From Musicola paradisiaca NCPPB 2511 (GTDB lineage: Bacteria; Pseudomonadota; Gammaproteobacteria; Enterobacterales; Enterobacteriaceae), in NCBI RefSeq assembly GCF_000400505.1, contig NZ_CM001857.1, forward strand, positions 2,408,257 through 2,472,256: a stretch of 64,000 bases of DNA, written 5' to 3'. The notes beneath the pieces were generated by a model that was not told where the DNA came from, searched no databases, and was given only the letters and a program-made list of their open reading frames with translations. Every line of letters begins with the position of its first letter. Position 1 is the first letter of the stretch. The position numbers and the translations under genes are program-made. Shown piece by piece: positions 37,864 to 58,719 of this stretch.

Positions 37864-38733
37864 TCAATAACTTGGCGTTATCGTCAACACAACTAATCCT
37901 AATGGGGCCACCTCCTCCACACCGCATTGAAATGGCGATGCGCTGCCTATCACATGAATTTTGCGCCCCGGCAACAGCGATACATCATAAATGTCGCTTT
38001 TCCCATCAATGTCCAGCAACCAGCGACCATTGCCGATGCTGGTCACTCCGGCATCCACCAGCCAGGAAGCGCTTCCGCCTTCCACCAATAACGGCTCCTG
38101 TAACCCTTTGGGCAAAAACAGCGGATCCGCTTTCCATCTCCCGACATTTTCGAGCTTCCCAGCTTTCAACGTCATGTGTGGGATCGACAATACGCTGTCG
38201 CCCCCATCATCGACCACCGGCGCTTCATCCCCAAACGGTTTACCCTGCCCGGTAGCCAGCCATTCCAGAGAAACACCGGTATCCAGCGCACACGTCACCA
38301 CCACGTCGCCGGGGAAAAAATCCCGTCGAATCCAGGTACTGATCGTCCCCGGCGCGATGCCCAATAGATCCCCCAATTCCTTTTGCGTGCTAAAACCATA
38401 TGCATCGAGCATACGGCGCAGGACAGCTTTTCCTCCAGACGCCAGAACTTGCTCATACAGCGTTTTTCCCTTGCGCGATGTTTTTTCTGCACCAATATTC
38501 GATTTTGCGAATTCACCTGTTACCAACCAGCCTGCATCCACTCCAGTATCCAGTGCACATCGCAGAATGATATTACCGGGAACATTACCTCGCTGAACCC
38601 AGTTACTGATTGTATTTGTTGGTATTTCAGTAACATCACTGAGCTCTTTTTGTGTTTTCACTCCGTAGCTCGACAGTATGCGTTCCAGTACGGAGGCCGC
38701 AGAGACGGCACTGCTATTCGTATTCAAAAACAC
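37864..38733 (-). CDS. CI-type phage repressor with two tandem HTH domains
   Basis: Predicted lysogeny repressor. 289 residues from GTG 38733; a TTG at 38727 is better placed behind GAGGTG. Two copies of the CI helix-turn-helix domain are seen: residues about 12-75 (VLERILSSYGVKTQKEL to CALDTGVDAGWLVTG) and about 103-165 (VLRRMLDAYGFSTQKEL to CALDTGVSLEWLATG). They share the pattern TQKEL-x-D, TIS-x-W and CALDTGV-x3-WL-x-TG. A C-terminal domain (about 195-289) looks like the oligomerisation domain of 186/P2-type CI; no LexA-like self-cleavage Ala-Gly with Ser/Lys pair is evident. One such HTH domain is usual, so the duplication is notable. Divergent from the early genes. Confidence 0.88.
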   Translation of the reverse strand: MFLNTNSSAVSAASVLERILSSYGVKTQKELSDVTEIPTNTISNWVQRGNVPGNIILRCALDTGVDAGWLVTGEFAKSNIGAEKTSRKGKTLYEQVLASGGKAVLRRMLDAYGFSTQKELGDLLGIAPGTISTWIRRDFFPGDVVVTCALDTGVSLEWLATGQGKPFGDEAPVVDDGGDSVLSIPHMTLKAGKLENVGRWKADPLFLPKGLQEPLLVEGGSASWLVDAGVTSIGNGRWLLDIDGKSDIYDVSLLPGRKIHVIGSASPFQCGVEEVAPLGLVVLTITPSY

Positions 38734-38752
38734 CTCACGAGTATTTACATAT

Positions 38753-38795
38753 ACACGTTACGTGTCTTATAGTGTCTACATACCACATGTCACAC
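38753..38795. promoter_or_regulatory. Candidate repressor operators between cI and early genes
   Basis: A 13-bp palindrome ACACGTTACGTGT at 38753-38765 overlaps a direct repeat GTGTCT at 38762-38767 and 38772-38777, ten bases apart. A reverse-oriented ACAC lies at 38792-38795. The one-turn spacing fits cooperative binding by the adjacent repressor. No binding data. Confidence 0.5.
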
Positions 38796-38829
38796 CATAG
38801 AACACTCTGTCCGAGGGAGATATTGCTTT

Positions 38830-39129
38830 ATGTTGCGTGAGATTTCAATTGGATCCCCATCTTCTGGGGAAAATCCTAGCCTCTATCTGGTGCATAGCAC
38901 ACCGCCAGAACCCGCTCTACATGCTATTGAAAAAGTGTTACCCGATATGGCGGGAGTAGACGCTTTACTCACGTCTTCAACACGACGATCGCCGCGACCA
39001 CTCCCTAAGCACATTCAACAGAACTCAGGTTGCAAATTTAAATGCCATCGAATAGCTGACTCCGCCGACGGTTTTTCCAATCCACGGAGGAATCAAAAGC
39101 GCAATATCCATTTTGCAACCGAACACTAA
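38830..39129 (+). CDS. Hypothetical early phage protein (weak)
   Basis: 99 residues, first open frame after the operator region, with GAGGGAGA about 12 bases before the ATG. The N-terminal half (MLREISIGSPSSGENPSLYL, then PPEPALHAIEKVLPDM) looks protein-like. The C-terminal half, rich in Arg and Ser, does not, so the frame may be degraded. In related phages this place holds a Cro/Apl- or CII-type regulator; I see no helix-turn-helix. Unrecognised. Confidence 0.35.
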   Translation: MLREISIGSPSSGENPSLYLVHSTPPEPALHAIEKVLPDMAGVDALLTSSTRRSPRPLPKHIQQNSGCKFKCHRIADSADGFSNPRRNQKRNIHFATEH

Positions 39130-39189
39130 TAATTCGAAAATTTTAAGTAATCGTGTTGTCGACCCATTTCCGCCACCCAGGGATCCTTC

Positions 39190-42600: not shown

Positions 42601-42822
42601 GTGGAACAGACAGAAACAAAAGAGCTAACCCTGTCAAGGATTAGATTGATCTCTGATATGTCACTGATTTCACAATGTAATCCTGAAGAAATGAAAATCG
42701 CCATGTCACTGATCGCCGATTTATCGCACGGTGAAATTCCGGATAGTGATTATCAACAAATCCTGAAGGAATATGGTGATCTTCAGCGGTTGAGGACCTG
42801 GTTCGACCAACAGATGTTGTAA
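42601..42822 (+). CDS. Hypothetical small phage protein
   Basis: 73 residues from GTG 42601, with GAAGAGG five bases upstream. Acidic and helical (MEQTETKELTLSRIRLISDM, then LRTWFDQQML at the end). Not recognised. The base composition around it is lower in G+C than gpA. Confidence 0.55.
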   Translation: MEQTETKELTLSRIRLISDMSLISQCNPEEMKIAMSLIADLSHGEIPDSDYQQILKEYGDLQRLRTWFDQQML

Positions 42823-43362: not shown

Positions 43363-43566
43363 ATGAAAATTTACGCTCATCAGGACGATACGCTGGATCA
43401 AATCTGCTATCGCTACTACGGCAAAACACAAGGCATTGTCGAAACCTTACTGTCATCCAATCCGGGTCTGGCCGACCTGGGCCCACTATTGCCGCACGGG
43501 ACTGCGGTCGAATTACCGATTATTCAGACATCGTCCACCCGAGAAAGCGTCAATCTCTGGGAATAA
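43363..43566 (+). CDS. X: Tail protein gpX (LysM-like)
   Basis: 67 residues, the same length as P2 gpX. DDTLDQICYRYYGKTQGIVE, LSSNPGLADLG, PHGTAVELP and the C-terminal VNLWE follow P2 closely. Small tail protein with a LysM-like fold. Starts the retained tail block; in P2 gene Y and lysis genes come next, whereas here R follows after 45 bases. Confidence 0.95.
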   Translation: MKIYAHQDDTLDQICYRYYGKTQGIVETLLSSNPGLADLGPLLPHGTAVELPIIQTSSTRESVNLWE

Positions 43567-43611
43567 CGTCGCTGCCCACACCTGTTTTCCCCCTCTTTCA
43601 CAGGATATCTC

Positions 43612-44080
43612 ATGCAAAAACCTATCGACCTTCGGCAACGGCTTAATCAAGCGTTTCCTGCATTGGCGGCATCCCCCGAGGCCTTACAATTGCGGATTAA
43701 AAAGGGAAGCGTTGTCACCACGCCGGCACCATCACTGACGTTCGAATATCCAATATAACCTATTAATAAATATAGTTAATTTCTCTGACGATATTGATGT
43801 GCTATGCGTCACCCTTCTCTCCTGGCTACAGACTAACCAGCCGGATTTGTTCACGCGCGACAGCGCCAAACGGCGGGGAATTCGCTTTAAAACCCGGCCC
43901 AATACCGATGGCACTACTCATCTGACCGTATCGCTACGCCTGACGGAACGCCAACGGGTGCGTGAAGAGAATCAGACGCTCCACGTCACTTACTTACCCG
44001 AACCGCCGCCGCCGGAACCGGTTACTCGTCCTACGGCGCTGTATATCAATGGCGAATGGGTTAGTACATGGGCATCTTGA
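43612..44080 (+). pseudogene. R: Tail completion protein gpR with one frameshift
   Basis: P2 R (155 residues) ends the tail tube. The ATG at 43612 reads MQKPIDLRQRLNQAF to LTFEYP and stops at 43758. The following frame resumes YNLLINIVNFSDDIDVLC to the end, with LLSWLQTNQPDLF and PEPPPPEPVTRPTALYINGE matching P2. Removing one A from the AA at 43752-43753 restores exactly 155 residues. So this is a single +1 indel. Gene S, which follows R in P2, is absent from the 171-base gap after it. Confidence 0.88.
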
Positions 44081-44251
44081 GTTCGCAACCGGCGACGCAC
44101 ACGGCACGCGCCACCCAGCCCGATACACCGTTCACCATGACGGACAGCGTATTGAGCCGGTGGCGGCACGCCAACTTTGTCCCCGGTTGTGCCATCGTCA
44201 GCCCAATACCGATCGATTGTTTCCTCCAAAACGAAAACGCATGCTTCTCCT

Positions 44252-44893
44252 ATGAACACATACGACTATCTTTCAGAGATCCAACGCACCCTACGCAACC
44301 TGATTCGTATCGGTGTCGTCACGGACGTCGATACCCAGCAGGCGCGTTGCCGCGTACAAACCGGCGGCATCACCACCGGGTGGCTTAACTGGCTATCCCG
44401 CCGTGCGGGCAGCTCCCGTGAATGGTGGGCGCCTTCCACCGGTGAACAGGTGCTTTTGCTCGCCATCGGTGGAGAGCTCAACACCGCATTCGTACTGCCG
44501 GGTATCTACAGCAACCAGCATCCTGCGCCTTCGACGTCCGCTGATGCTTGCCATATCCAGTTCCCGGACGGCGCAGTGATGGAATATGAGCCCGCCACTG
44601 GCGCGCTCATAGTCGCCGGCATCAAAACAGCCAGCGTAACGGCGGCGGAATCTGTGGTCGTTACCACCAAAAATGTCACCGTCAATGCCATCGAACGCAT
44701 CACGCTCGCTACCCCCGAGGTTGTCTGCACCCACAAGCTGATCACTCAAACGCTTGAGGTTCAGCAGGGCGGCAGCATCACCGGCAATATGACCCACTCG
44801 GGCGGCAGCCTGACGTCTAATGGCATTGTGGCGCATACCCACCAGCACAGCGGCGTCCAGAGCGGCGGCGGCACAACAGGAGGCCCATTATGA
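44252..44893 (+). CDS. V: Baseplate spike protein gpV
   Basis: Membrane-piercing central spike of the contractile tail. 213 residues (P2 211). RCRVQTGGITTGWLNWLSRR, WWAPSTGEQVLLLA, GELNTAFVLPGIYS, FPDGAVMEYEP, the beta-helical repeats with TPEVVCTHKLITQTLEVQ and the iron-binding HTHQHSGVQ tip are all seen. The start MNTYDYLSEIQ at 44252 matches P2 MNTLANIQE. It overlaps W by four bases (ATGA). Confidence 0.95.
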   Translation: MNTYDYLSEIQRTLRNLIRIGVVTDVDTQQARCRVQTGGITTGWLNWLSRRAGSSREWWAPSTGEQVLLLAIGGELNTAFVLPGIYSNQHPAPSTSADACHIQFPDGAVMEYEPATGALIVAGIKTASVTAAESVVVTTKNVTVNAIERITLATPEVVCTHKLITQTLEVQQGGSITGNMTHSGGSLTSNGIVAHTHQHSGVQSGGGTTGGPL

Positions 44894-45237
44894 GCAGCAG
44901 CTATAGCGGCATGAACTGGGATACCGGCGTCAGTCGCAGCGATGTGGAGCATTTGCGCCAGAGCGTCCGCGATATCCTGACGACACCGCAAGGTAGTCGG
45001 GTTATGCGCCGCGAGTACGGTTCACTGCTTTCGTCATTAATTGATCAACCCCAAACCCCGGCGTTGAAGTTGCAAGTCCAGGCCGCCTGTTATGTCGCGT
45101 TGCTGAAGTGGGAACCTCGCCTGACCCTGACATCCCTCTCCATGGAGAGTCGTTATGACGGTCAGCTGCTTGTAGACATCACCGGCACCTACACCGATGC
45201 CAATACACCGCTTTCATTAACTATTTCAGTGAGTTGA
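44890..45237 (+). CDS. W: Baseplate wedge protein gpW
   Basis: 115 residues (P2 115). gp25-like baseplate protein with MNWDTG, DVEHLRQSVRDIL, GSRVMRREYGSLL and LIDQPQTPALKLQV as in P2. Starts inside the end of V. Confidence 0.95.
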   Translation: MSSSYSGMNWDTGVSRSDVEHLRQSVRDILTTPQGSRVMRREYGSLLSSLIDQPQTPALKLQVQAACYVALLKWEPRLTLTSLSMESRYDGQLLVDITGTYTDANTPLSLTISVS

Positions 45238-45241
45238 CATC

Positions 45242-46150
45242 ATGCCCATTATCGACTTAAGCCAGTTACCCTCACCCAGCGTAGTTGAAACGCTGGATTA
45301 TGAAACGCTGTACGACGAGCGCAAGAACACGCTGTTGTCGCTCTATGCCGACGACGAGTTGGAAGCGATATCCCGCACGTTGTCACTGGAATCGGAGCCG
45401 CTGACCAAACTGCTACAGGAAAACGCCTATCGTGAATTGTTGCTACGCCAGCGCATCAACGAAGCGGCGCTTTCCGGCATGTTGGCTTTCTCTCTCGGTA
45501 GCGACCTTGACCAGTTGGGCGCCAATGTCAACGTTTCACGTCTCACGATTACCGCAGCAGATACAACTTCGGTTCCACCGACCGACGCAGTCATGGAGTC
45601 CGATACCGATTTTCGGTTACGCATCCAACAGGCATATGAGGGGTTAAGCGTAGCGGGCCCCATCGGTGCCTATCAGTTTCATGGCCGCAGTGCCGATGGA
45701 CGGGTCGCTGATATTTCCGTCACCAGTCCCAGCCCGGCGCAAGTGCTGGTTTCCGTATTATCGCGCGAAAATGACGGGACGGCCGACGACGACCTGATCG
45801 CCATCGTCAACGCCGCGCTGAATGCCGAAGATGTCCGTCCGGTGGCGGATCGGGTTACGGTGCAATCCGCCAGAATAGTGAACTACACCGTTGACGCCTC
45901 CTTGTTCCTTTATCCGGGCCCGGAAGCTGAACCTATTCGCACGGCGGCAGAGCAGAAACTGCAAAGTTACATCAGTACGCAACATCGCTTAGGCCGTGAC
46001 ATTCGCCGTTCAGCTATTTTCGCAGCGCTGCACGTTGAAGGGGTTCAGCGCGTGGAGCTTACCCAGCCGGCTGCGGATATCGTGCTTGATGATACGCAGG
46101 CATCATATTGCACCCAATATACGCTGACGGTGGGAGGTACGGATGAGTAA
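45242..46150 (+). CDS. J: Baseplate protein gpJ
   Basis: 302 residues (P2 302). MPIIDLSQLPSPSVVETLDY, LTLESEPLTKLLQENAYREL-like segment, SDLDQLGANVNVSRLTI, VMESDTDFRLRIQQAYEGLS, GRVADISVTSPSPAQV and HRLGRDIRRSAIFAALHVEG all follow P2. Edge component of the baseplate. The end overlaps I by eight bases. Confidence 0.96.
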   Translation: MPIIDLSQLPSPSVVETLDYETLYDERKNTLLSLYADDELEAISRTLSLESEPLTKLLQENAYRELLLRQRINEAALSGMLAFSLGSDLDQLGANVNVSRLTITAADTTSVPPTDAVMESDTDFRLRIQQAYEGLSVAGPIGAYQFHGRSADGRVADISVTSPSPAQVLVSVLSRENDGTADDDLIAIVNAALNAEDVRPVADRVTVQSARIVNYTVDASLFLYPGPEAEPIRTAAEQKLQSYISTQHRLGRDIRRSAIFAALHVEGVQRVELTQPAADIVLDDTQASYCTQYTLTVGGTDE

Positions 46151-46754
46151 CAGCCCCCTCTTACCACCGGGCTCGTCGACGCTGGAACACAACGTCGCCG
46201 TCACCGGAGCCAGTCTGGAAAGCATCCCGCTGCCATTACGCCAGTTGTGGAATCCAGACCGCTGCCCGGTTGGGCTACTGCCCTATCTGGCCTGGGCGGT
46301 ATCGGTCGATCGTTGGGATGAAACATGGCCCGAAGCGACCAAACGCAGGGTTATCAAAAGCGCTTTTTTCCTTCATCGCCACAAAGGCACCGTCGGCGCA
46401 CTGCGCCGGGTGGTCGAACCGCAAGGCTATCTGATCCGCATCAAAGAGTGGTGGCAAACCGGAGATGCCCCAGGGACATTCAGGCTGGACATCGGCGTTC
46501 AGGAAAATGGAATTACCGAAGAGTCTTTTCGTGAACTGGAACGCCTGATCGCCGATGCCAAACCTGTCAGTCGGCATTTACTGGGCCTGAATATCACTCT
46601 GGATAGTCAAGGTACCGTTATCCTGGGGGCCAGCAGTTACAGCGGCGACGAACTGACCATCTACCCGTACTTCCCGGAAACCGTCATCGTCTCCGGCGAG
46701 GACGTTAACGGCGCCGCGCTGCATATCATCGACAGTATCAGTGTCAGCGGATAA
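46143..46754 (+). CDS. I: Baseplate/tail protein gpI
   Basis: 203 residues; P2 I is 176, so this has a longer C-terminus. LPPGSSTLEHNVA, PLPLRQLWNPDRCPVGLLPY, LAWAVSVDRWDE, VIKSAFFLHRHKGTVGALRR and EWWQTGDAPGTFRLDIGV are family features. In P2 fibre gene H follows within a few bases; here nothing phage-like follows for 4.4 kb. Confidence 0.95.
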   Translation: MSNSPLLPPGSSTLEHNVAVTGASLESIPLPLRQLWNPDRCPVGLLPYLAWAVSVDRWDETWPEATKRRVIKSAFFLHRHKGTVGALRRVVEPQGYLIRIKEWWQTGDAPGTFRLDIGVQENGITEESFRELERLIADAKPVSRHLLGLNITLDSQGTVILGASSYSGDELTIYPYFPETVIVSGEDVNGAALHIIDSISVSG

Positions 46755-47121
46755 GCGGCTTACCGCCGACAGAGACAACATCCGCGCTGCTTTTCCCCGT
46801 CTTGTGCGCACCGGTCACTGCCGGAAACGCCGGCGGGGAACCTCATTCCCGTGGATTAAACCATCCGATGAGGCTCATCCGCGCCGGGTTATTCCCGTCA
46901 AGGGCCTCGCCACACGCCGTCAATCTGATGAGTAATTGCATGTTGCAGCATCTCCCGCCCTCGCAATATCGCCGGTTGATAAAGGCTGACAGGTGTGTCA
47001 GCCGGCTGAGACGGTGCTTTTCCCACCGCCTGCAATGCTTCTCCGGCGATCCGGCTGTCATGTTACTGTCGTATTGGTTTCCTAATGTAAATGCAATTTT
47101 TACATCATCAGGACTACCACT
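46755..47121. other. Junction of tail block with bacterial genes
   Basis: 367 bases with no supported gene and no sign of the conserved N-terminus of P2 fibre protein H. A perfect hairpin GGCTGACA (46984-46991)/TGTCAGCC (46996-47003) without T-run is present. The recombination junction should lie here. Confidence 0.45.
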
Positions 47122-48477
47122 ATGCGTCTGCACTCATTGTTGTTTTCCGCTGTTTTCGCCACCGCCGCCGCACCAGCGGCCGACATTCACGCCGAACACT
47201 ACCAAATTGCATTCCCCAATCAGGATCGGGTTGCCTATCAGGGTGCCTGGAAAACGCGATTTCCTACCGGTTTCCCGATGGGGATCGGCTCAGGGCTGAC
47301 GTTTACCGGTCGGAACGGCAACCAGCTGACCTTTGTCACCGTCACGGATCGCGGGCCAAACGCCGATGCGCCCGCTTATCAAGGTCAGGAAGGCAAGATC
47401 TTCGCCGCCCCTGACTTTACGCCATCCATCATGACCCTCACCCTCGACGGCAATCAGGCGACAGCGTCCGCCCTGCATCCCTTACATGACGAAAAAGGGC
47501 CGGTCAGCGGCCTGCCCCTGCCGGCAACACTGGTGGGCAGCACACGCGAAGTCGCACTGAGCGACCAATTAAAGAAACTGCCGGACGACGCGCGTGGCGT
47601 GGATACAGAGGCCATTACGCCGGATGGCAGCGGCGGCTTTTGGCTCTCCGACGAATACGGCCCGTTCCTGCTCCATATCGCCGCTGACGGCAACATTCTG
47701 CAGAAATTCGGGCCCACTCCGGCTGATGGCGAAACCGGCATCGCCACCGGGTTGCCCAACATCATCAAATGGCGTCAGCCCAATCGTGGATTTGAAGGCG
47801 TTACTCGCCTGCCGGACGGCCGTATTTTGGCGGCGGTGCAAAGTACGTTGGATATCGACGGGAAGACGCGCGATAAAGCCCTGTTTACCCGGCTGGTCAG
47901 CTTCGATCCGGCGACGGGGAAAACCGCCATGTACGGCTACCCACTGGATCCGAGCCACTGGAAAAAGATGGGCGACGCCAAAATCGGCGATATCGTCGCG
48001 CTAAAGAATCATCAAATACTGGTTATCGAACAGGGCGCCGACAAGGACAAAGTCATGCACAACCTGATTTATCGGGTTGATTTTGGCGATGCCAGCGATC
48101 TGACCACTTTCGATCAACAGCAACCTGCCGAATGGAACGATGCCGCTACCCTGGCCAGTCGGGGAATTCGGCTGGCTGACAAACAGCAAATCGTCGATTT
48201 GCGGGCACTGGGTTGGGAGCCGGAAAAAGCGGAAGGGTTGGCATTGATTGACGCCAGTACGCTGGCCGTGACCAATGACAATGACTTCGGCCTGCAATCC
48301 GTCCTGACGCATCCGGCGAATGGCGTAAAGAAAATCGGCAGCTACCAGGCCAACGCTGAAGGCACTTTATCGTTGGAGGGCAAAGCCACCCAGGCGGGTG
48401 TTGAACTGGAACCGCTGTCCAGCGACGAAGCCGCCAGCCAGCTCTGGATCATTCACCTCCCCCAACCGCTGAAATAA
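47122..48477 (+). CDS. Secreted phytase-like esterase (PF13449-type)
   Basis: 451 residues with a signal peptide (MRLHSLLFSAVFATAAAPAA, likely cut near AA-DIHA). Beta-propeller-like protein with VTDRGPNADAP, DTEAITPDGSGGFWLSDEYG, NRGFEGVTRLPDGRI and AEGLALIDASTLAVTNDND, as in the esterase-like phytase family. Periplasmic or secreted; the substrate is not known, and phosphoester hydrolysis is inferred from the family. A bacterial rather than phage gene, lying inside the tail operon in the same direction. Confidence 0.85.
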   Translation: MRLHSLLFSAVFATAAAPAADIHAEHYQIAFPNQDRVAYQGAWKTRFPTGFPMGIGSGLTFTGRNGNQLTFVTVTDRGPNADAPAYQGQEGKIFAAPDFTPSIMTLTLDGNQATASALHPLHDEKGPVSGLPLPATLVGSTREVALSDQLKKLPDDARGVDTEAITPDGSGGFWLSDEYGPFLLHIAADGNILQKFGPTPADGETGIATGLPNIIKWRQPNRGFEGVTRLPDGRILAAVQSTLDIDGKTRDKALFTRLVSFDPATGKTAMYGYPLDPSHWKKMGDAKIGDIVALKNHQILVIEQGADKDKVMHNLIYRVDFGDASDLTTFDQQQPAEWNDAATLASRGIRLADKQQIVDLRALGWEPEKAEGLALIDASTLAVTNDNDFGLQSVLTHPANGVKKIGSYQANAEGTLSLEGKATQAGVELEPLSSDEAASQLWIIHLPQPLK

Positions 48478-48683
48478 CTGATCAGTTAACGCGACGGGCC
48501 AACGGGGCGGCTACGAGAGGTTAGGCGCCCCTAACCCAGGTTGTAAATGGCGGGTTGACCAATCACGGCTTGCTTTCACTGCACAGATAAAATTTATTCC
48601 CATCACCGTATTTCCCTATCGGCAATTATTGTTTACAGTGTAAGCCATTATGAACATCTTGCTGCACTGTTGGAGAATAAAGC

Positions 48684-50026
48684 GTGACGGGTTCTACCGC
48701 AATCGACGTTCGCCAGTTGATTAATCAACGCCCCCTTGGTTCTTATCAGAAACTGATTGTTTTTCTGGCTTTTTGCATTATCGCCCTTGATGGCATGGAC
48801 ATCGCACTGATGGGGTTTATCGGCCCCTCGCTGAAAGCCGCCTGGGGGATCAGCAACGCCGAGCTGGCCGTGGTCATCAGTTCGGCGCTGATCGGCCTGG
48901 CCGTCGGCGCCATGGTTTCAGGCCCGCTGGCTGACTGGAAAGGCCGCAAGGCGATTATTGTGTTCAGCGTGTTGATGTTCGGCCTGTGGACCCTGATGGC
49001 CGCTTACTCGCAAAATTTACAGCACCTGGTGATATTCCGTTTTCTGACCGGTCTGGGGCTCGGTGCCGCCATGCCGAACGTCGGTACGTTAATCTCCGAA
49101 TTCGCGCCGGAAAAAAGGCGTTCATTTATTATTACAGTCGTCTTCTGTGGCTTCAGTTTCGGCGCCGCCAGCGGCGGCTTCGCGGCATCCTGGATGATCC
49201 CTCACTGGGGTTGGCCGTCCGTCTTTTGGCTGGGTGGCATTCTGCCGCTGCTGCTGACGCCGTTTCTGTTGTGGAAACTGCCGGAGTCCGTTCGCTTCCT
49301 AGTGACCAGACGCGCCTCATCACAACACATTCATCGTGTTATCGAGAAAGTCGCACCCGGCGTCAGCACAGCGGACAGTCAGTTCGTCATGCCTTCATCC
49401 GAGAAAAACCGGGGTTCTCGGTTCAACTGGTGTTGTCGAAGTCTTATCGTTTTGGCAGCGTTATGCTGTGGGGAGGCTATTTCTGCGGCATGTTTATGGT
49501 GTACCTGCTCGGCAGTTGGCTGCCGACAGTGATCAAGGACGCTGGCATGAGCGTCACCGAAGCCACCGTGATCACCGCGCTCTATCAGGCGGGAGGCATG
49601 TTCGGCTCCCTGTTCGCCGGCTGGCTGATGGATCGTATCAATCCGCATCTGGCGCTGGGTGCCATCTACGCCGTCGGCGGCATGGCAACGGCGTTGCTCG
49701 GCATATCGAATAGTACCGTCCTGCTGGCGTTAATCGCCTTCGGCAGCGGGTTCTGCCTCAACGGCGCCAACACCGGGATGAACGCTCTCTCGGCTCGCTA
49801 TTACCCGACAGAAGCCCGCGCGACCGGCGCCGGTTGGATGCACGGCATCGGGCGTTTCGGCGCCATTATGAGCGCCTTCGTGGGTGCTCAGATGGTGAAT
49901 ATGGGATGGGGGTTGGTGGTTATGTTCGCCATACTGTCGCTGCCGGCATTTCTCACGTCGGCGATGATTCTGGCCAAAGGCCAGTTCAGCCAGACTCGTC
50001 CCGCCGTACTCGAGGCCGCCTACTGA
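48684..50026 (+). pseudogene. Aromatic-acid/H+ symporter (MFS, AAHS type), frameshifted
   Basis: Twelve-segment transporter related to PcaK, MhpT and BenK, for import of aromatic acids such as those from plants. GTG start at 48684 with GGAG eight bases upstream; AIDVRQLINQRPLGSYQ is a typical AAHS N-terminus, followed by LIGLAVGAMVSGPLADWKGRK and LTGLGLGAAMPNVGTLISE. After MPSSEK near 49404 the frame changes at an A5 run (49404-49408). One more A would continue as KPGFSVQLVLSKSYRFGSVM through the second six segments to 50026. As written, the protein stops at 49532 after 282 residues. Confidence 0.88.
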
Positions 50027-50074
50027 CCGCTGAACCATTACCGCCTCCCCGGCAAGTGGTTTGGGGATGACAAT

Positions 50075-50105
50075 CATAACAACGCCCGGTTCGCGGCGTT
50101 GTTAT
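50075..50105. terminator. Shared hairpin between the MFS gene and smrA
   Basis: CATAACAACGCC (50075-50086) pairs perfectly with GGCGTTGTTATG (50094-50105). It lies between convergent genes; T-runs are weak on both sides, but the 12-bp stem is strong. Confidence 0.65.
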
Positions 50106-50135
50106 GTTGTCTCATTGACAGAGCGCCGTACTAAA

Positions 50136-50702
50136 CTAACGGCTGTGCTTGGCATGACGTTCACGATTATCCCAGCGCGCCTGTTCGGATTTTTTCAGCG
50201 CAATGTAGCAGGCTCCACTGCCGCCATGAAACGGCTGCGCAACGCAAAACGCCTGTACCGCCTCAAATTGTTGCAGCCACCGGAACAAATAACTGCGCAC
50301 GATGTTGGCATGCGATTTATCGTCGCGAGACTTCCCATGAATGACCAGGAGATTACGCAGGCTGTCCTTCTGTGCTTGCTGCATGAAAGCAAACAGATTC
50401 TGCCGGCAGCTAGCCACCGGCTGACGCAGCAAATTCAGGCTGGCATCCAGTGGGTACTTCCCCTGACGCAGTTTATCCAATACCCCTTGTTGAATACCTT
50501 CTTGGCGGAATTCAAGCGGGGCCGTGATGGGAATAGGGTCAATGAAACTGGTGATCAGAAAATTATCCGTTGCCGATTCGGTACATACCACCGGGGCAGC
50601 GTTGGTCGACGAAGGCTTCAGATGTACAACGGATGCAGACGGCTTCAGCGGTTTGACATCATCCATGGCGTTTAAAAACAGGTCTTTCTCGTCAAGGGTC
50701 AT
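50136..50702 (-). CDS. smrA: Smr-domain DNA endonuclease SmrA
   Basis: 188 residues, related to E. coli YdaL/SmrA (187 residues). The Smr domain in the second half shows LDASLNLLRQPVASCRQNLF, LLVIHGKSRDDKSHANIVRS with the conserved HGK/R motif and HGGSGACYIALKK. E. coli SmrA has DNA-nicking activity; its cellular role is unclear. I choose ATG 50702 (MTLDEKDLFLNAMDDV), which matches the family and has GGTGGGTG upstream; a GTG four codons earlier is possible. It runs against the tail genes. Confidence 0.94.
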   Translation of the reverse strand: MTLDEKDLFLNAMDDVKPLKPSASVVHLKPSSTNAAPVVCTESATDNFLITSFIDPIPITAPLEFRQEGIQQGVLDKLRQGKYPLDASLNLLRQPVASCRQNLFAFMQQAQKDSLRNLLVIHGKSRDDKSHANIVRSYLFRWLQQFEAVQAFCVAQPFHGGSGACYIALKKSEQARWDNRERHAKHSR

Positions 50703-51123
50703 CGTGTCACCCACCTTTACTGAAACAACCGGCCTACTATAGCGAGAGCTCCGGGAAAGATCATCCGCTCACCGGCGTTCTTCCCCGATTCCGCGGTTAA
50801 CCGATCACCTTGTCCCCATCCGCTGACATCACGAACCCGCATCGATAAAAATGGCTGCGCGCCATGTTAACTAATAGGGTTTATTTATCAGATATTGCCG
50901 CGTAATACATTTTGAATGCTATGGCTAATAAAGGTCATGACTGATAACCGTGATGACTAATAACCGTTATGACTAATAACAATGCCCCTTCATTATTTAC
51001 GCAGAGAAAATAAAAAACATGTTTAGCCGTTTCTCACACAACAGGCGAAAAAACAAATTTTCATTCCCCCCGGCAAAATACACATCGGGAAAATAACACC
51101 CGGTTTTAATTTCTGGAGGAATC
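50703..51123. other. smrA-fibre gap with tandem repeats and fibre ribosome site
   Basis: 421 bases without a gene. It holds the 16-bp tandem repeats (50921-50984), an A+T-rich stretch (50985-51100) and GGAGG just before the fibre start. A promoter for the second half of the tail genes is likely here because the upstream host genes break the P2 late operon; I cannot place it exactly. Confidence 0.45.
50921..50984 (+). repeat. Four tandem 16-bp repeats upstream of tail-fibre gene
   Basis: Copies at 50921-50936, 50937-50952, 50953-50968 and 50969-50984, consensus ATGACTAATAACCGTN. The middle two differ by two bases; the outer ones are more diverged. The array ends 139 bases before the fibre ATG. 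It may be a regulator-binding array or a slippage-prone repeat. Confidence 0.85.
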
Positions 51124-51675
51124 ATGAAAAAAAGTCACGCTATTGATCTGACGTTAGGTAAAGAGAATTTTTATAAAAACAATCGGGTTCGTATCGACAA
51201 TATTTCAGTGTGTTGTTGCAAATGCGCTGATGAATCCGTCGATAGCCTGAAGGCGCTTATCGGCATCCCCCAACCCTGGCCGTTAGCCGATGCTCCGGAA
51301 GGCTGGCTGAAATGTAATGGGCAGGCGTTTGATACGGCCAAATATCCTGAACTGGCGAAATGCTACCCGAGCGGTACTTTACCGGATTTACGCGGCGAAT
51401 TTATTCGTGGTTGGGATGACGGACGAGGTGTGGATACGAGTCGAGAGTTAGTTTCCGCTCAATCAGGTACGTATATTACCGGTGATAGTGATTCACAACC
51501 CAGCGTTCAGGGAATTGGAAATATCACAGAGTGTCATGTGGATTCACCTGATTCAAATGCCCGCTCGATTTACTGGATACCCGCGACCAAAACAGATCGT
51601 CTGACAGGGCCAACGTATTGGGGCGTGACTCGCCCTCGTAATATTTCTTTCAATTATATTGTTAAGGCAGGTTAA
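51124..51675 (+). CDS. Short tail-fibre protein with collar domain
   Basis: 183 residues, with TGGAGGAATC before the ATG. The centre (about 55-105) is a phage tail-collar domain: WPLADAPEGWLKCNGQAFD, YPELAKCYPSGTLPDLRGEF and IRGWDDGRGVD. The C-terminal FNYIVKAG is typical of fibre tips. P2 H is about 670 residues; the baseplate-attaching N-terminus is missing. It is replaced by about 45 residues with an odd cysteine cluster CCCKC. How this fibre would attach to the particle is unclear. Directly coupled to the assembly gene G. Confidence 0.85.
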   Translation: MKKSHAIDLTLGKENFYKNNRVRIDNISVCCCKCADESVDSLKALIGIPQPWPLADAPEGWLKCNGQAFDTAKYPELAKCYPSGTLPDLRGEFIRGWDDGRGVDTSRELVSAQSGTYITGDSDSQPSVQGIGNITECHVDSPDSNARSIYWIPATKTDRLTGPTYWGVTRPRNISFNYIVKAG

Positions 51676-52289
51676 TGATGGCAACCCTAAACGACACAGA
51701 GATTCAGCTTAATACCCAAGGGCTGAGTATGAGTGCAGGTTATATTACGGTTTATCATATCGCGCCACAGACCCGGGAATATATTGGCAGCTCCCGAGAA
51801 TTTCTCATGGAGGGCGTGGGTATTCCAGCATACAGTTTCATTGATACTCCGCCGGATTCGGAGGCTAAACAAGCGATTGTCCGCAGCGAAGACGGGGTAA
51901 GTTGGGTGTTCACGCCCGATTACCGTGGGAAAACGGCTTACAATAAACAAACCCGACAGTCTGTCCTTGTCACACAGCCTGGGGAACTGTCTGATCAGTT
52001 GACGCTGCTCTCTCCCACTACCGACTATGATGTCTGGCAGGATGATGGCTGGGTTACTGATGCGCAGGCGCAGAAAACGGCGCAGGTCGAGGTAGCTAAA
52101 GCGCAATTGGCCGATGATATCGCCGAGGCGGAAAAGCAAATTACCGTATTGCACTATGCCGTAGATCTGAATATCGCCACCGAACAGGAAACCCAACGTC
52201 TGGCGGACTGGAAAACCTATCTGGTTCTGCTAAATCGGGTTGATGTATCGGAAGCGCCGTCGATTGATTGGCCAACCATACCGGCCTAA
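51675..52289 (+). CDS. Tail-fibre assembly chaperone (gpG-like)
   Basis: 204 residues. The start codon overlaps the fibre stop by one base; a second ATG follows directly. Features of Caudo_TAP assembly proteins: an N-terminal sheet-rich part, TPDYRGKTAYNKQTRQ in the middle, and a C-terminal helical region with VEVAKAQLADDIAEAEKQIT and a closing DWPTIPA. Helps fold or attach the fibre encoded upstream. Confidence 0.88.
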   Translation: MMATLNDTEIQLNTQGLSMSAGYITVYHIAPQTREYIGSSREFLMEGVGIPAYSFIDTPPDSEAKQAIVRSEDGVSWVFTPDYRGKTAYNKQTRQSVLVTQPGELSDQLTLLSPTTDYDVWQDDGWVTDAQAQKTAQVEVAKAQLADDIAEAEKQITVLHYAVDLNIATEQETQRLADWKTYLVLLNRVDVSEAPSIDWPTIPA

Positions 52290-52322
52290 GCGGTATAGGC
52301 CGTATCGTATGTTCCCCGACAC

Positions 52323-52357
52323 GGGTGCCGTCACTGCGGCATCCGTTTTTTATTTTT
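52323..52357 (+). terminator. Terminator after fibre-assembly gene
   Basis: GGGTGCCG (52323-52330) pairs with CGGCATCC (52337-52344), followed by GTTTTTTATTTTT. It separates the fibre pair from the sheath operon, which must then have its own promoter (P2 has a late promoter before FI). Confidence 0.8.
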
Positions 52358-52498
52358 ACGTAATCAATTGTTTTTAATACCAATAAAAACAAGCTCATCG
52401 CGATACTGTTGTGCCATCCCATACCAAACTCCATTCGCATGCCTTCCGTTTGCCGCCAAGGCACTATGACTCGCACCCCACAACAGGAGAACTTCTTG

Positions 52499-53668
52499 AT
52501 GAGTGACTTTCATCATGGTACGCAGGTCGTCGAAATCAACGATGGAACCCGCGTCATTTCAACCGTATCTACCGCGATTGTCGGCATGGTCTGTACCGGA
52601 CCCGACGCCGACGCCGCCACCTTTCCACTCAACACACCGGTGCTGATTACCGATGTCCTGACCGCCGTCGGCAACGCCGGCACCCAAGGCACCCTGGCGG
52701 CCGCTTTGCAGGCCATCGGCGATCAGACCAAACCGGTCACTATCGTGGTACGTGTTGCCGAAGGCGCCACAGAAGCTGAAACGGTATCCAACATTATCGG
52801 CGGCGCTGATGCCAACGGTAAGTATACCGGCATGAAAGCACTGTTGGACGCTCAAGCCGTTACCGGCGTCAAACCGCGGATCCTGGGCGTTCCCGGGCTG
52901 GATTCCCAGCCTGTCGCCACCGCGCTGGCGTCCATCTGTCAATCGCTGCGCGCCTTCGGCTACATCAGCGCCTATGGTTGTAAAACGCTGTCCGACGCTA
53001 TCAAGTACCGCGACAACTTCAGCCAGCGCGAATTGATGCTGATTTGGCCGGACTTTATCGCCTGGGACAGCACCGCCAACGCCAGCACCACTGCTTACGC
53101 CACCGCCCGTGCACTGGGCTTACGCGCCAAAATCGATCAGGAAACGGGCTGGCACAAAACCTTGTCCAACGTCGGCGTCAACGGCGTCACCGGTATCTCT
53201 GCCAGCGTGTACTGGGATCTGCAAACCATCGGCAGCGATGCCGACCTGTTGAACGAAGCCGGCGTCACCACCTTGGTTCGCAAAGACGGGTTCCGCTTCT
53301 GGGGCAACCGTACCTGCTCCGACGATGCACTGTTTCTGTTTGAAAACTACACCCGCACCGCCCAGGTTCTGGCCGACACCATGGCTGAGGCGCATATGTG
53401 GGCAGTGGACAAACCGGTTACTGCCACGCTGATCCGCGACATTATCGAAGGTATCAAAGCCAAGTTCCGCGAACTGAAATCCAACGGTTACATCATTGAT
53501 GCCGACTGTTGGTTCGATGAAAGCGCCAACGACCAGAGCACGCTGAAAGCGGGCAAGCTGTACATCGACTACGAGTACACGCCGGTACCGCCACTGGAAA
53601 ACCTCACGCTGCGTCAGCGCATCACCGACAAGTATCTGGTGAACCTGGCCGCATCCGTTAACAGCTAA
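52499..53668 (+). CDS. FI: Contractile tail sheath protein gpFI
   Basis: 389 residues (P2 FI 396). Outer contractile sheath. DGTRVISTVSTAIVGMVCT, PVLITDVLTAVG, VSNIIGG, TGVKPRILGVPGLDS, QRELMLIWPDFIAWD, ARALGLRAKIDQETGWHKTL and VPPLENLTLRQRITDKYL are nearly identical to P2. The ATG at 52499 (MSDFHHGTQVVE) has CAGGAGA upstream; the upstream open frame is not family-like. Highly conserved, suggesting recent function. Confidence 0.97.
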   Translation: MSDFHHGTQVVEINDGTRVISTVSTAIVGMVCTGPDADAATFPLNTPVLITDVLTAVGNAGTQGTLAAALQAIGDQTKPVTIVVRVAEGATEAETVSNIIGGADANGKYTGMKALLDAQAVTGVKPRILGVPGLDSQPVATALASICQSLRAFGYISAYGCKTLSDAIKYRDNFSQRELMLIWPDFIAWDSTANASTTAYATARALGLRAKIDQETGWHKTLSNVGVNGVTGISASVYWDLQTIGSDADLLNEAGVTTLVRKDGFRFWGNRTCSDDALFLFENYTRTAQVLADTMAEAHMWAVDKPVTATLIRDIIEGIKAKFRELKSNGYIIDADCWFDESANDQSTLKAGKLYIDYEYTPVPPLENLTLRQRITDKYLVNLAASVNS

Positions 53669-53682
53669 GGAGCCACAGACAC

Positions 53683-54201
53683 ATGGCACTGCCTCGCAAA
53701 CTGAAATATCTCAACCTGTTTAACGACGGTATGAGCTACATGGGTCAGGTGAACTCGGTCACTCTGCCAAAACTGACCCGAAAACTGGAAAACTACCGCG
53801 GCGGCGGTATGAACGGCGCCGCACCGATAGATTTCGGCCTGGATGACGAAGCACTGGTTCTGGAATGGAGCATGGGCGGCCTGCCTGACGCGACTTTCTG
53901 GAGCCAATACGCACTACCGGGTGCCGATGCAGTCCCCCTGCGCTTCGCCGGCTCTTACCAACGTGACGATACCGGCGACATCAGCGCTGTCGAAATCGTC
54001 CTGCGTGGTCGTCACAAGTCGATTGACAGTGGTGAATCCAAACAGGGTGAAGAAACCGACGTGAAAATCTCCACCCAATGTACTTACTACAAACTGATCA
54101 TCGATGGCACCGAAATGATTGAGATCGATACCATCAATATGATCGAAAAAGTCAACGGTGAAGATCGGCTGGAACAGCATCGTACCAACATCGGTCTTTA
54201 A
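53683..54201 (+). CDS. FII: Tail tube protein gpFII
   Basis: 172 residues, identical in length to P2 FII. Inner tail tube. MALPRKLKYLNLFNDGMSY, VTLPKLTRKLENYRGGGMNG, FAGSYQRDDTG, GEETDVKIS and IDTINMIEKVNGEDRLEQHR are conserved. 14 bases after the sheath gene, with AAGGAG upstream. Confidence 0.97.
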   Translation: MALPRKLKYLNLFNDGMSYMGQVNSVTLPKLTRKLENYRGGGMNGAAPIDFGLDDEALVLEWSMGGLPDATFWSQYALPGADAVPLRFAGSYQRDDTGDISAVEIVLRGRHKSIDSGESKQGEETDVKISTQCTYYKLIIDGTEMIEIDTINMIEKVNGEDRLEQHRTNIGL

Positions 54202-54264
54202 TCCACCTTACTGGCCAGCTATGGCTGGCCAGAATTGCTTTGAAACCAATTTGGAGTATTTAAC

Positions 54265-54707
54265 ATGACGGCTGAAGTCACTGTGCAAGAAAACGTAATT
54301 TCACTGCACACCCCGATTAAACGTGGTGAAACGCTGATCGAATCAGTCACGCTGCTAAAGCCCACGGCCGGCACACTGCGCGGCATCGGCCTGGCGGCGT
54401 TAGCGAATGCTGACGTAGAAGCATTGATCAAAGTGCTTCCTCGTATGACCACCCCTTCTCTCACCGAGGCCGATGTCATGGCGATGGATCTGTCCGATCT
54501 GTTGCTGTTTGCCGGTAAGGTGATCGGTTTTTTGGCGCCGAGCTCGGCACAGTAACATTGCCGAAGCGCCTTACCGTTGACGATCTGATGGCGGATATCG
54601 CCGTGGTATTTCACTGGCCGCCGTCAGAACTTTTCCCCATGAGCCTGGCGGAGCTTACTCACTGGCGTGCCAAGGCATTAGAACGAAGTGGACAACCCAA
54701 TGAGTAA
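54265..54707 (+). CDS. E: Tail assembly protein gpE and its -1 frameshift product gpE+E'
   Basis: gpE runs 54265-54555 (96 residues; P2 E 91). A slippery heptamer T TTT TTG lies at 54528-54534 in the E frame. A -1 shift there gives a fusion ending at 54707, 147 residues (P2 E+E' 142), whose tail LMADIAVVFHWPPSELFPMS to ALERSGQPNE matches P2 E'. The pair acts as tail assembly chaperones in contractile and siphophage tails. The E' stop overlaps the start of T (ATGAGTAA). The mechanism appears intact. Confidence 0.9.
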
Positions 54708-56913
54708 ACTCGCTAGCCTCAGTGGCTTGTTAACACAAGCCGCTCACATCAGCGATCAGCTATACCTGGCCCAAACGGGTATGGCATCCGCCAATAAGGA
54801 TGAACGCTCGTTCAGTCAGCGCATGGATGCGCTGGCTTCCCTCATCGAGGGGGCAGCCAAACAAACTGATGATCTCGTTGATTTAGCTAATAAAACTAAA
54901 GACACGACGTTGGCTGGAAAAAAAGTCGTCCGCCGCTATCAGGCCATCAACCGTCTGAATAGAATGAAAACGCCTGTTCCAGCTGACAACGCCTCAACCT
55001 CGTCATCATCACCAGACCAGCCGCCCATAAAAAATGCGCCTCAGGCATCACCCAAAACGGGAAACTCATCAGGGCGTACCAAAGTCGCCCTCCGCTATCA
55101 GGCCATCAAACGTCTGAATGAAATAAAATCGCTGGTTCCGGCCGACAACACCTCAACCCCGTTATCATCACCAGACCAGCCGCCCATAAAAAATGCGCCT
55201 CAGGCATCACCTAAAACGGGAAACCCTTCAGGGCGTATACTTGCTCAGGCGGGTAAATCTGGTGACATCGTCAAGGATTTTGGCAATAAAGGGGCCGAAC
55301 TGACAAAGGGCTTACATCAAAAATACACCGAACTACGCACCTTATTTACGCCAGAGCAGACACTTCCTGCCTCTGTAAATGATACGTCAACGTTATCAAA
55401 CGCCTCGTCAGCATTAGCGACAACAGCCATACAACCTGCAGTGCAACCCCAAATCCAACAACCACTACCGTCAAATGAAAACCCGTCGCCGAAATATGAC
55501 AGTGACACCAGTGTGATAACAAATTCATTGCAGCAAGTCAGATTGGCTTTTGCCCTACTGCGTGCGGAACTGACTTACCTCAGTGACACAATTGCAGGCA
55601 CGTTGCAGTACAGCAAAACATCCGTAGATGATTTTCGCACCACCTTATTAGCAGTGGAGCCCGCGGCAAAGGCGGCTAATCTGGCTGTTGCCCCAGCCAA
55701 AACCATACCCAACATATTCCCCAACAATCAGGGGACAGACGGCGGATCGAACCGCGCGCCAGACGCACAAAATAAGGCGGCATCCACTGTATTGATGAAC
55801 AGTGATCAGCAAAACGCGCTCACGCAACATGGCCTCACCGCAGCACCGTCTACCGAACCAACGAACACCGCGTTGAATATGCTAAAACCGGCGCTAACCA
55901 TTAACTGCCTCTGTACCAGCGCACAACAATCAGCCATTGATGCTTCGGGCATCAGCGGTTCTCAATCGGCGAATATTTCTGCGGGAAATACACTAGCCAG
56001 ACAGGAAAGCAGTGCAAGTAGCCTGAGTAAGGCCGCACAGCAATGTCAGGCCAGTTTGCAAAGTTGCACTCAGACCGCTCCAGGCTTGCTTGATACGATT
56101 GATAGTGTACTAAGTACCAGCGAAAATATTTTTTCCGTAATAGGTTCTATCGGTTCATTCGTCTCTATCGTGGCGGGTAACGTAGGCAATCTTATTGCTA
56201 TTTTTGAGTTCCTCTCACCCCTATTTATGGTGATCGGCGGTACGATTATTTCTGCAATATCGGCAATCAGTTTACCCATTATTGGTATTATCGCACTGGT
56301 CGCGGCAGGGGCAGCCTTAATTTATAAGTATTGGCAACCTATTGGTGCTTTTCTTTCCGGTGTTTTTGATGGGTTCGTTGCAGCATTTTCCCCGCTTCAG
56401 GGGGTGTTTGAACAACTTAGAATTCCATTCGACGCATTATTTAAGTTGGTTGGTGGTCTGTTTAATTATTTCAAGGATCTGATTTCCCCCATCAAAATGT
56501 CTCAGGAACAGTTGGGGGAGTTCAGGCAAGCCGGTGAGATAGTAGGGAGAGTGTTAGGCGACATATTGATGGCGCCCATTAATGCGATCAAATGGATACT
56601 GGATAAAATTGAAATAACTAAAAACGCATTACTTTGGTTAGCAGGGAAAAGCGCTACCAAAGCAGAAGATAAACCGGAATTACCGCTACCTGATGGAGAG
56701 CGAATTGTTCCAAACTACAATGCAATCACCTCCGGGAATAATAGCAAGAGCTACAGTGACAATAGCGTCATCAATAATAATATACAAATCACGGTTCCAC
56801 CGGGCTACAGTGACGAACAGGTCAAACAACATATTAATTCCGCATTAAATGACCAGGCACAACGGAAGCAAGACATGCAATTAGGTTCAATGAGCGCTGG
56901 ATTGTTAGATTGA
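54700..56913 (+). CDS. T: Tape-measure protein gpT (divergent, repeat-containing)
   Basis: 737 residues from ATG 54700 (P2 T 815). Sets tail length and fills the tube. Here the N-terminal half is largely Ser/Pro/Ala/Gln-rich and unlike P2. It includes a 53-residue tandem duplication (about 79-184 of the protein). A hydrophobic zone (about 470-550, VIGSIGSFVSIVAG to GIIALVAAGAALIYKYW) and the C-terminal PPGYSDEQVKQHINSALNDQ fit tape-measure proteins. Identity rests on its place between E' and U. A GTG at 54688 is less likely. Confidence 0.85.
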   Translation: MSKLASLSGLLTQAAHISDQLYLAQTGMASANKDERSFSQRMDALASLIEGAAKQTDDLVDLANKTKDTTLAGKKVVRRYQAINRLNRMKTPVPADNASTSSSSPDQPPIKNAPQASPKTGNSSGRTKVALRYQAIKRLNEIKSLVPADNTSTPLSSPDQPPIKNAPQASPKTGNPSGRILAQAGKSGDIVKDFGNKGAELTKGLHQKYTELRTLFTPEQTLPASVNDTSTLSNASSALATTAIQPAVQPQIQQPLPSNENPSPKYDSDTSVITNSLQQVRLAFALLRAELTYLSDTIAGTLQYSKTSVDDFRTTLLAVEPAAKAANLAVAPAKTIPNIFPNNQGTDGGSNRAPDAQNKAASTVLMNSDQQNALTQHGLTAAPSTEPTNTALNMLKPALTINCLCTSAQQSAIDASGISGSQSANISAGNTLARQESSASSLSKAAQQCQASLQSCTQTAPGLLDTIDSVLSTSENIFSVIGSIGSFVSIVAGNVGNLIAIFEFLSPLFMVIGGTIISAISAISLPIIGIIALVAAGAALIYKYWQPIGAFLSGVFDGFVAAFSPLQGVFEQLRIPFDALFKLVGGLFNYFKDLISPIKMSQEQLGEFRQAGEIVGRVLGDILMAPINAIKWILDKIEITKNALLWLAGKSATKAEDKPELPLPDGERIVPNYNAITSGNNSKSYSDNSVINNNIQITVPPGYSDEQVKQHINSALNDQAQRKQDMQLGSMSAGLLD
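54925..55241 (+). repeat. 159-bp in-frame tandem duplication in gene T
   Basis: CGCTATCAGGCCATCAA occurs at 54934 and 55093, exactly 159 bases apart. Long blocks such as CCAGACCAGCCGCCCATAAA are identical in both copies. 159 bp is 53 codons, so the frame is kept; the copies differ at a modest number of positions. Confidence 0.92.
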
Positions 56914-56926
56914 GGAGAAATATATC

Positions 56927-58623: not shown

Positions 58624-58719
58624 ATCACTTATCGAATTTATAATTTGCAAATTCGAATTTTGATGTGTAGTGTACGGGTAAGATATTTCGTTAACCCGAA
58701 CACATAAGGTGAATTCAAA

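Follow-up and report, generated by a model that had tools for sequence, protein, structure and literature searches.

Why does a P2/186-type repressor carry two DNA-binding heads on one chain? The cI gene considered here lies in a stretch of 64,000 nucleotides, the whole of which was analysed and is called the window (Table 1). Its product has two helix-turn-helix domains (HTH1 and HTH2) followed by one C-terminal domain (CTD). In phage 186, the CI assembly is a wheel of seven dimers, the CI sites are spoken of as A-type and B-type sites, and Tum acts as antirepressor of CI. The single HTH of 186 CI is reportedly able to bind two distinct sequences (Shearwin, Dodd and Egan, in 2002). In the phage 186 record, CI sites are annotated at pR, FL, FR and pB, and three of them cover pR. 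A wheel-like 14-mer is described for 186 CI in PMC8053113. A sequence-only reading of the window had suggested that a two-headed monomer could bind either the closely spaced repeats in the adjacent operator region or two different sequences. Our results favor the latter: in the PSP3-type CI family a division of labour between the two heads is likely, as judged from covariation and from the map of candidate sites.

Table 1 Features of the cI switch and the tail island in the window (positions counted from the first nucleotide of the window).
Feature	Positions	Strand	Remarks
cI, two-headed CI repressor	37864..38733	-	289 aa counted from GTG
C-terminal oligomerisation domain	37891..38187	-	residues 183-281; PF16452; likeness to 186 CI CTD
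HTH2, near-invariant head	38233..38427	-	residues 103-167; PF07022 alone; low entropy; covariation with FL
FL-type HTH2 operator (predicted)	38496..38513		codons 74-79, linker; AATTCGCAAAATCGAATA on cI strand
HTH1, variable head	38512..38694	-	residues 14-74; PF07022 alone; covariation with pR operator
Imperfect second pR palindrome copy, ACACCTCACGAGT	38730..38742		2 mismatches, 23 bp from first
pR promoter	38744..38773	+	-35 TTTACA 38744-38749, -10 TATAGT 38768-38773, spacing 18; aligned with annotated 186 pR
Putative HTH1 operator, ACACGTTACGTGT	38753..38765		perfect palindrome between -35 and -10 of pR
Direct-repeat block, probably Apl-type sites	38772..38807		block kind tracks divergent gene; 186 Apl sites there
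Divergent ORF, probable vestige of Apl-like gene	38830..39129	+	conserved start
Decayed FR-type HTH2 site, AATTCGAAAATTTTAAGT	39131..39148		13/18; fourth-best PWM match
TumA-like ORF, possible antirepressor	42601..42822	+	phrog_1993, function uncharacterised
P2 tail genes X, R, V, W, J, I, G-part, FI, FII, E, T-part, U, D	43363..58623	+	tblastn with PSP3 proteins
pB-type HTH2 operator (predicted), AATTTGCAAATTCGAATT	58642..58659		between D and ogr; 186 pB CI sites there too
ogr/B late-gene activator, 64 aa	58720..58914	+	PF04606 81 bits; 66% over 58 aa to PSP3 Pag

The two-headed repressor and its relatives

The cI frame of 289 codons is intact and lies on the minus strand, which the sequence-only reading had left unstated. 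Because of the sequence itself and the place of ATG in the relatives, the start codon is likely the TTG at 38725-38727 (a protein of 287 aa); the listed GTG probably belongs to the Shine-Dalgarno sequence (GAGGTG). Pfam detected two PF07022 stretches in the 289-aa protein (159.6 bits over the whole protein). Taken alone, HTH copy 1 (residues 15-74) scored 65.8 bits and copy 2 (residues 103-167) 101.2 bits with PF07022, for which the cut-off is 22. PF16452 covers residues 183-281 (67 bits). A structure prediction, proposed earlier as a check, was run with AlphaFold2 on the monomer (79 aligned sequences; mean pLDDT 89.5, pTM 0.47). The model contains two five-helix HTH domains (residues 12-72 and 90-161) with low confidence at residues 77-79. 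Because the pLDDT is 89.5 but the pTM only 0.47, the heads and the CTD can each be relied on as folds, but not the way in which they are placed relative to one another. Thus, the CI-type repressor with a duplicated HTH and one CTD that had been read from the sequence was confirmed by Pfam and by the model. The modelled CTD superposes on that of 186 CI (2fkd) with a Z score of 18.5 and an rmsd of 1.4 over 110 residues; when HTH2 plus CTD was compared with the whole 186 CI, Z was 18.0 and the rmsd 18.7, because the domains are differently placed. The window CI and 186 CI (2fjr, NC_001317) share the same HTH and CTD families and folds (PF07022 and PF16452), but 186 CI has one HTH per chain and the window CI has two. 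Therefore, we assign the window CI to a two-headed subfamily rather than to the 186-like single-HTH CIs. Residues invariant across 53 representatives of this subfamily (defined below) are kept in the window: W45 and R48 in copy 1, and T130, S132, W134, R136 and R137 in copy 2. Residues 127-128 are AP in the window CI and SS in most relatives.

The two-headed form is not unique to the window. In a database search for proteins with a double PF07022 domain, CI of phage PSP3 (Eganvirus PsP3, AY135486; 52% identity over 93% of the length) and dozens of relatives were found. The CIs of PSP3, SEN1, SI22, SW9 and Midge share 50-53% identity with the window CI over 93% of its length. PSP3 CI has the same layout of two HTHs and CTD, and its FL, FR and pB sites resemble those of the window in kind. 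However, PSP3 is a phage with an SSGT-type HTH2 and CTTG sites, whereas the window holds a tail-only island with an APGT-type HTH2 and TTCG sites. Named relatives of cI come from Dickeya, Prodigiosinella, Lonsdalea, Serratia, Kosakonia, Erwinia, Enterobacter, Buttiauxella and others, the nearest being from Pectobacteriaceae (Dickeya, Prodigiosinella and Lonsdalea). When 295 genomes were drawn evenly across the order Enterobacterales, 112 had a PF07022 match, and at least eight ORFs in at least seven genomes had two matches; six of these ORFs were re-read individually. We collected 183 sequences (182 loci and the window), among which 131 ORFs combine a CTD with two HTHs and 48 carry a single HTH, numbers that give no frequency because the loci come mostly from similarity-ranked lists obtained with a largely two-headed query. 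After a duplicate of the window (L001) and an internally frameshifted locus (L005) were dropped, the 129 two-headed rows gave 112 distinct cores and then 53 representatives with less than 85% identity (the window and 52 others). The sequence-only reading had allowed that the double form might prove common and already characterised. It is common in P2-like phages of Enterobacterales, but no characterisation, that is, no description of a two-headed P2/186-type CI or of its targets, was found in the open-licence literature. The architecture has been in public records since PSP3, and the division of labour appears to be new.

To place the heads, a tree was made of 107 HTH domains from 37 of the 53 representatives and 33 single HTHs (68 columns, many open forks); 16 representatives and 13 single-HTH rows (near-duplicates and the fragment L065) were left out. 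The 37 HTH1 copies fall without exception into a single clade (SH-aLRT 100). The HTH2 copies are mixed with 11 single HTHs of SGT type, and the other 22 single HTHs, which are of the 186 kind, stand apart (support 97). The window heads are placed as PSP3-type, HTH1 in the HTH1 clade and HTH2 in the HTH2/SGT group. We propose that one old duplication gave HTH1 and HTH2 of the PSP3-type CIs. Over the 53 representatives, mean column entropy is lowest in HTH2 (0.53 bits), followed by HTH1 (1.16), the CTD (1.80) and the linker (1.86). Because the synonymous divergence is near equal (0.62 for HTH1, 0.65 for HTH2 and 0.62 for the CTD), HTH2 seems to be held by selection on the protein rather than to have spread recently. 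In one relative (L006) the whole of HTH1 is gone and the linker is still there, as if the two-headed system can decay.

Two heads occur elsewhere. Klebsiella phages 4LV2017 and ST11-VIM1phi8.4 have two HTHs of this family in one ORF (30-31% identity). Both heads are of the 186/Fels kind (helix 3 ...ANRY... or ...ATRY...) and apparently arose by a separate duplication; in a tree enlarged with these rows, the new rows have long branches and their placement is unsure. There was no clear operator pattern in the stretches of this second family that were scanned. Two further two-headed CI-like proteins (L191 and L192) have other HTH types, probably by separate duplications. A lysogeny regulator of a Clostridioides difficile phage, phiCDKH01_17, is also reported to have two HTHs and to bind three control-region fragments; the available part of that paper (PMC11172241) proposes no consensus and gives no task to each HTH. 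By its description, phiCDKH01_17 belongs to the XRE family (cd00093) and to a different phage group from the PF07022 CIs.

The tail island around cI

The sequence-only reading had called the repressor a phage repressor. We searched the window with 39 of the 42 PSP3 CDS (gp2, gp12 and gp23.5 were left out) by tblastn at E 1e-3. Eighteen of the 39 queries matched: X, R, V, W, J, I, part of G, FI, FII, E, part of T, U, D, Ogr, A, gp34, CI and TumA. Among the 21 queries unmatched in the window are Q, P, O, N, M, L, holin, endolysin, int, cII and gp30; LysB, one of the PSP3 lysis proteins used as queries, had no match either. With matches to tail genes, cI and ogr of PSP3 and none to its capsid and int genes, the window contains a tail island that has kept its switch. 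As expected of a P2-derived R-type tailocin, genes for a contractile tail are present and capsid and terminase genes (judged with PSP3 Q, P, O, N, M and L) were not found. Thus, instead of a phage, the window holds what is left of a P2-like phage, reduced to a tail island. The intact apl and cII of a 186-type switch were not found in the window with the PSP3 gp30 and cII queries, and the divergent ORF beside pR (38830..39129) had no match in PHROGs or Pfam. The TumA-like ORF shows 44% identity over 32 aa to PSP3 TumA. The segment between I and the fibre region (47122-50026) holds a phytase-like gene (PF13449) together with an ORF that contains half of an MFS transporter domain (PF07690). Methyl-accepting chemotaxis genes flank the island on both sides (35141-37159 and 59416-63222), and a GGDEF/PAS/GAF gene lies on its right flank. 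By description, dickeyocin P2D1 of Dickeya dadantii 3937 is likewise a P2-type tail island in a soft-rot bacterium; the word "repressor" is absent from the main text of its account (PMC10719855).

The window copy might be a decaying relic without present function. The unmatched apl-like, cII, int and capsid genes of PSP3, the decayed FR and the loss of FL in a Lonsdalea relative (L027) would fit this idea. However, the 289-codon frame is intact, the FL and a strong pB site remain (see below), and ogr, the tumA-like ORF and the tail genes are retained. We consider a relic unlikely. A CI with a present function in the island of the window is the reading that we prefer, held somewhat less firmly than the division of labour in the family.

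DNA sites that follow one head or the other

A clear pR (-10, 16-18 bp, -35) is found upstream of cI in 45 of the 53 representatives. In the window, its spacer contains the palindrome ACACGTTACGTGT, the sole exact match in 64 kb, whose location matches the 186 CI sites at pR; a CI operator is predicted within the spacer, as in a 186-type switch. With up to two mismatches, the window contains only this palindrome and the imperfect copy just before the -35; with up to three, there are 21 matches against a chance expectation of 22, and 19 of these have three mismatches. Distal copies of each phage's own pR operator show no evident clustering. Across the family, the DNA in and beside pR forms types that match the types of HTH1 helix 3, and both parts of the pR region follow the HTH1 type. 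We measured this covariation with partial Mantel tests, the permutation p values of which ignore phylogeny. With CTD and HTH2 controlled, the pR operator correlated with HTH1 helix 3 (r 0.545, p 0.0005); with CTD and HTH1 helix 3 controlled, it did not correlate with HTH2 helix 3 (0.02, p 0.33). Weaker residuals were left for the rest of HTH1 (0.298, p 0.0005), the rest of HTH2 (0.102, p 0.04) and the CTD given HTH1 (0.201, p 0.0005). When synonymous distances and the rest of HTH1 were also controlled, HTH1 helix 3 kept 0.399.

A candidate site for the second head lies within cI itself. Synonymous variation in codons 74-81, measured in six-codon windows, is 0.26-0.34 against a mean of 0.89 (sd 0.094). 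The linker DNA there forms a palindrome (FL), idealised as CTTGCAAATGCAAG, with TTCG...CGAA in the class of the window; the idealised form of the SSGT class is AACTTGCAAATGCAAGTT, and the best loci agree with it at 17/18. Over the 53 loci the linker palindrome has on average 5.4 of 9 pairs, versus 2.25 elsewhere. In 49 representatives the value was 5.6 versus 4.2 after synonymous recoding (maximum 4.7 in 2000), and for the FL of the window alone the palindrome did not go beyond synonymous recoding (P 0.155). The FL site has been lost in three relatives (L002, L130 and the Lonsdalea relative L027).

The pR operator and FL were then compared in the same 44 of the 53 representatives (eight without a clear pR call and L161, with its linker site out of register, were omitted). 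For the pR operator, there was covariation with helix 3 of HTH1 (partial r 0.543, p 0.0005) and none with that of HTH2 (0.011, p 0.42). In contrast, FL DNA covaried with HTH2 helix 3 (0.403, p 0.0005), a correlation that rests on few origins because as few as one or two events on the tree may account for the changes of HTH2 type (SSGT to PT/ST/AP), and not with HTH1 helix 3 (-0.077, p 0.96). Linkage does not easily explain this pattern, because FL adjoins HTH1 yet follows HTH2, and because the synonymous distance of HTH1 correlates with the operator at 0.195. Natural swaps show the same. Loci L111 and L124 have the HTH1 type in common and a similar pR operator, and their HTH2, FL and FR differ; L115/L046 and L047/L003 are alike in this respect. 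The two modules, each with its own DNA, seem to recombine. Of the two possibilities raised by the sequence-only reading, the binding of two different sequences is supported by this double dissociation and by the site map below.

These results bear on the idea that both heads bind adjacent half-sites at pR as a built-in pseudo-dimer, so that HTH2 would mainly add affinity for pR. Consistent with it, the pR region has two dyad sites spaced by about 21 bp, most called promoters of two-headed phages have GATC beside the -10, and 186 pR also has a three-site CI array. But HTH2 helix 3 covaries with FL instead of pR, both parts of the pR region follow HTH1, the best HTH2-motif matches lie at FL, FR and pB and not at pR in all five records scanned, and the spacing signal (p 0.004-0.02) is uncorrected for about 60 tests. 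We find this arrangement quite improbable, and separate targets for the two heads remain our preferred reading. HTH2-type palindromes in the 300 bp before HTH1 numbered 2 in the 53 two-headed loci, versus 1.15 expected.

Single-HTH CIs with an HTH of the HTH2 type (SSGTISTW; L066-L083, from Rahnella, Ewingella, Citrobacter and others; 50-57% identity) have one head and a palindrome at pR itself. Their pR palindromes, such as AACTTGCATTTGCAAGTT, resemble FL, FR and pB of the two-headed phages. Read on the opposite strand, the pR operator of L083 equals the idealised FL motif, and this motif is near the pR operator of most of the 18 single-HTH loci with HTH2's helix 3; in L076, L081 and L082, which have this helix, only the outer bases of the palindrome agree. 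The pattern AnCTY-N8-RAG, which was devised from these 18 loci, is present in pR of all 18. That only HTH1 binds DNA specifically, HTH2 being a structural or protein-binding module such as a target of the Tum antirepressor, would suit the far stronger, interface-like conservation of HTH2 (0.53 versus 1.16 bits), but its helix-3 residues covary with FL and with the class of FR, and single-HTH CIs that have a similar palindrome in pR carry this helix too; we hold this to be very improbable. DNA reading by HTH2 is far better in line with these data. In several single-HTH loci (L067, L071, L078, L007, L015, L066 and others) the pR palindrome recurs 324 bp downstream, at a point within cI close to where the CTD begins, and in L076, L081 and L082 it recurs about 315 bp upstream. 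By analogy, these extra palindromes are possible counterparts of FL and FR of 186.

A second place for the HTH2 motif is FR. Of 44 loci, 29 have a copy at 14/18 or better directly after the stop codon of the Apl-like gene, where shuffled sequences would give 0.07. Its class tends to go with HTH2 over the 53 representatives: with SSGT-like HTH2 there are 31 CTTG copies, one TTCGA copy and ten loci with none at 14/18, and with PT/ST/AP HTH2 nine TTCGA copies and two loci with none, one of which is the window. We scanned the whole records of PSP3, Midge, SI22, RCIP0057 and 613R3 (labelled as a partial genome), five of the ten records listed with 93% coverage (seven phages). In all five, the top three matches to the HTH2 motif are the D-ogr gap (pB), the cI linker (FL) and the gap between the Apl-like gene and cII (FR), with scores of 14-17/18; the fourth-best match scores 13, and shuffles reach at most 12-14. 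The records of SI22 and RCIP0057 have no annotated ogr, but tblastn places it beside the site. The five phages represent about three CI lineages: the CI of 613R3 is 98% identical to PSP3 CI, and those of Midge and RCIP0057 are each 76% identical to it. For the window, a position weight matrix (PWM) was built on 12 FL and FR sites of the TTCG class, including its own FL. Over 64 kb, the site at 58642, which was not in the training set, ranked first, FL second and the FR remnant fourth. The third-best match (61054-61071) lies inside a GGDEF gene and is probably due to chance. Thus, on sequence grounds the window has the FL, FR and pB sites of a 186-type switch, with FR decayed. The places are those of the CI sites in 186, where FL, FR and pB share TTCAC-N5-GTGAA, unlike the palindrome in 186 pR. 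Sites of another protein, a host factor or Apl/CII, are hardly a credible account of the linker palindrome, FR and the pB motif: FR does coincide with the pE/cII start, the point of CII action in 186, yet the motif follows the HTH2 type, all three places are CI sites in 186, and a similar palindrome stands in pR of single-HTH relatives. CI sites read by HTH2 are the account that we retain. In the whole genome to which the window belongs, the HTH2 pattern occurs at 11 sites versus 6 in a reversed control, and for this reason we make no claim of host targets.

The direct repeats beyond pR are another matter. A block with GTTCTAY...GTGT beyond the -10 occurs in 28 of the 53 representatives, a block with TGCANTGNTGTGCAT in 10, and neither in 15. 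In all 10 loci with the TGCANTGNTGTGCAT block the divergent gene begins with MSDAKS... (eight) or MTPQIAIP... (two), compared with none of the 28 others. The kind of block therefore tracks the divergent gene family in 38 of 38 typed loci, and HTH2 can be identical on both sides. The 186 record has seven Apl sites at the same place as the block, and PMC7498355 describes the 186 Apl sites as direct repeats 10-11 bp apart. We rejected the block as a target of HTH2, because its kind follows the divergent gene family with HTH2 unchanged. Thus, the closely spaced repeats proposed as the CI target are not supported for most of the adjacent stretch, where the block at 38772-38807 follows the Apl-like gene; the part of the operator-region idea that survives is the pair of putative CI sites near pR (38753-38765 and 38730-38742).

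Proposed division of labour and its consequences

From the heads, the sites, their positions and their covariation, we infer binding and the assignment of each head to its sites as follows. An old duplication would have split two DNA-reading tasks over two heads of one chain. HTH1 would read operators in the lytic promoter pR and so set the phage's own immunity. HTH2, on a short flexible linker, would read a clade-wide palindrome at FL, FR and pB. The FL operator would lie within cI itself, encoded by the linker between the heads, and pB stands before ogr, the predicted activator of the tail genes. As in 186 CI, the CTD would make the chains oligomerise, with a geometry that brings pR, the flanks and pB together. 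In the window, CI may keep the tail-only (tailocin-like) island silent through pR and a block of pB: if pB is silenced, ogr would be off and therefore the tail genes would be off. The TumA-like protein, as a possible antirepressor, could release this repression on induction.

If the same HTH2 operators are present in phages with different HTH1, then cross-binding of CI is to be expected. Thus, we tentatively suggest a private immunity head combined with a shared head, by which CI of one prophage might bind the flanks and the late-activator promoter of a superinfecting phage that is heteroimmune, or those of a tailocin resident in the host; this extension is possible rather than probable.

The pR versus flank/pB logic becomes directly testable through head swaps, for which AACTTGCAAATGCAAGTT, AATTCGAATAATCGAATT and the pR operators are candidate target sequences for the isolated heads. 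The family may also offer a ready-made two-specificity repressor for engineering. The double task of 186 CI is seemingly split over two domains in a large natural family. If CI does bind the sites of other phages through the shared head, there would be a second, clade-wide layer of cross-regulation, with modules that recombine independently, and the shared head would predict which phages and tailocins can cross-repress.
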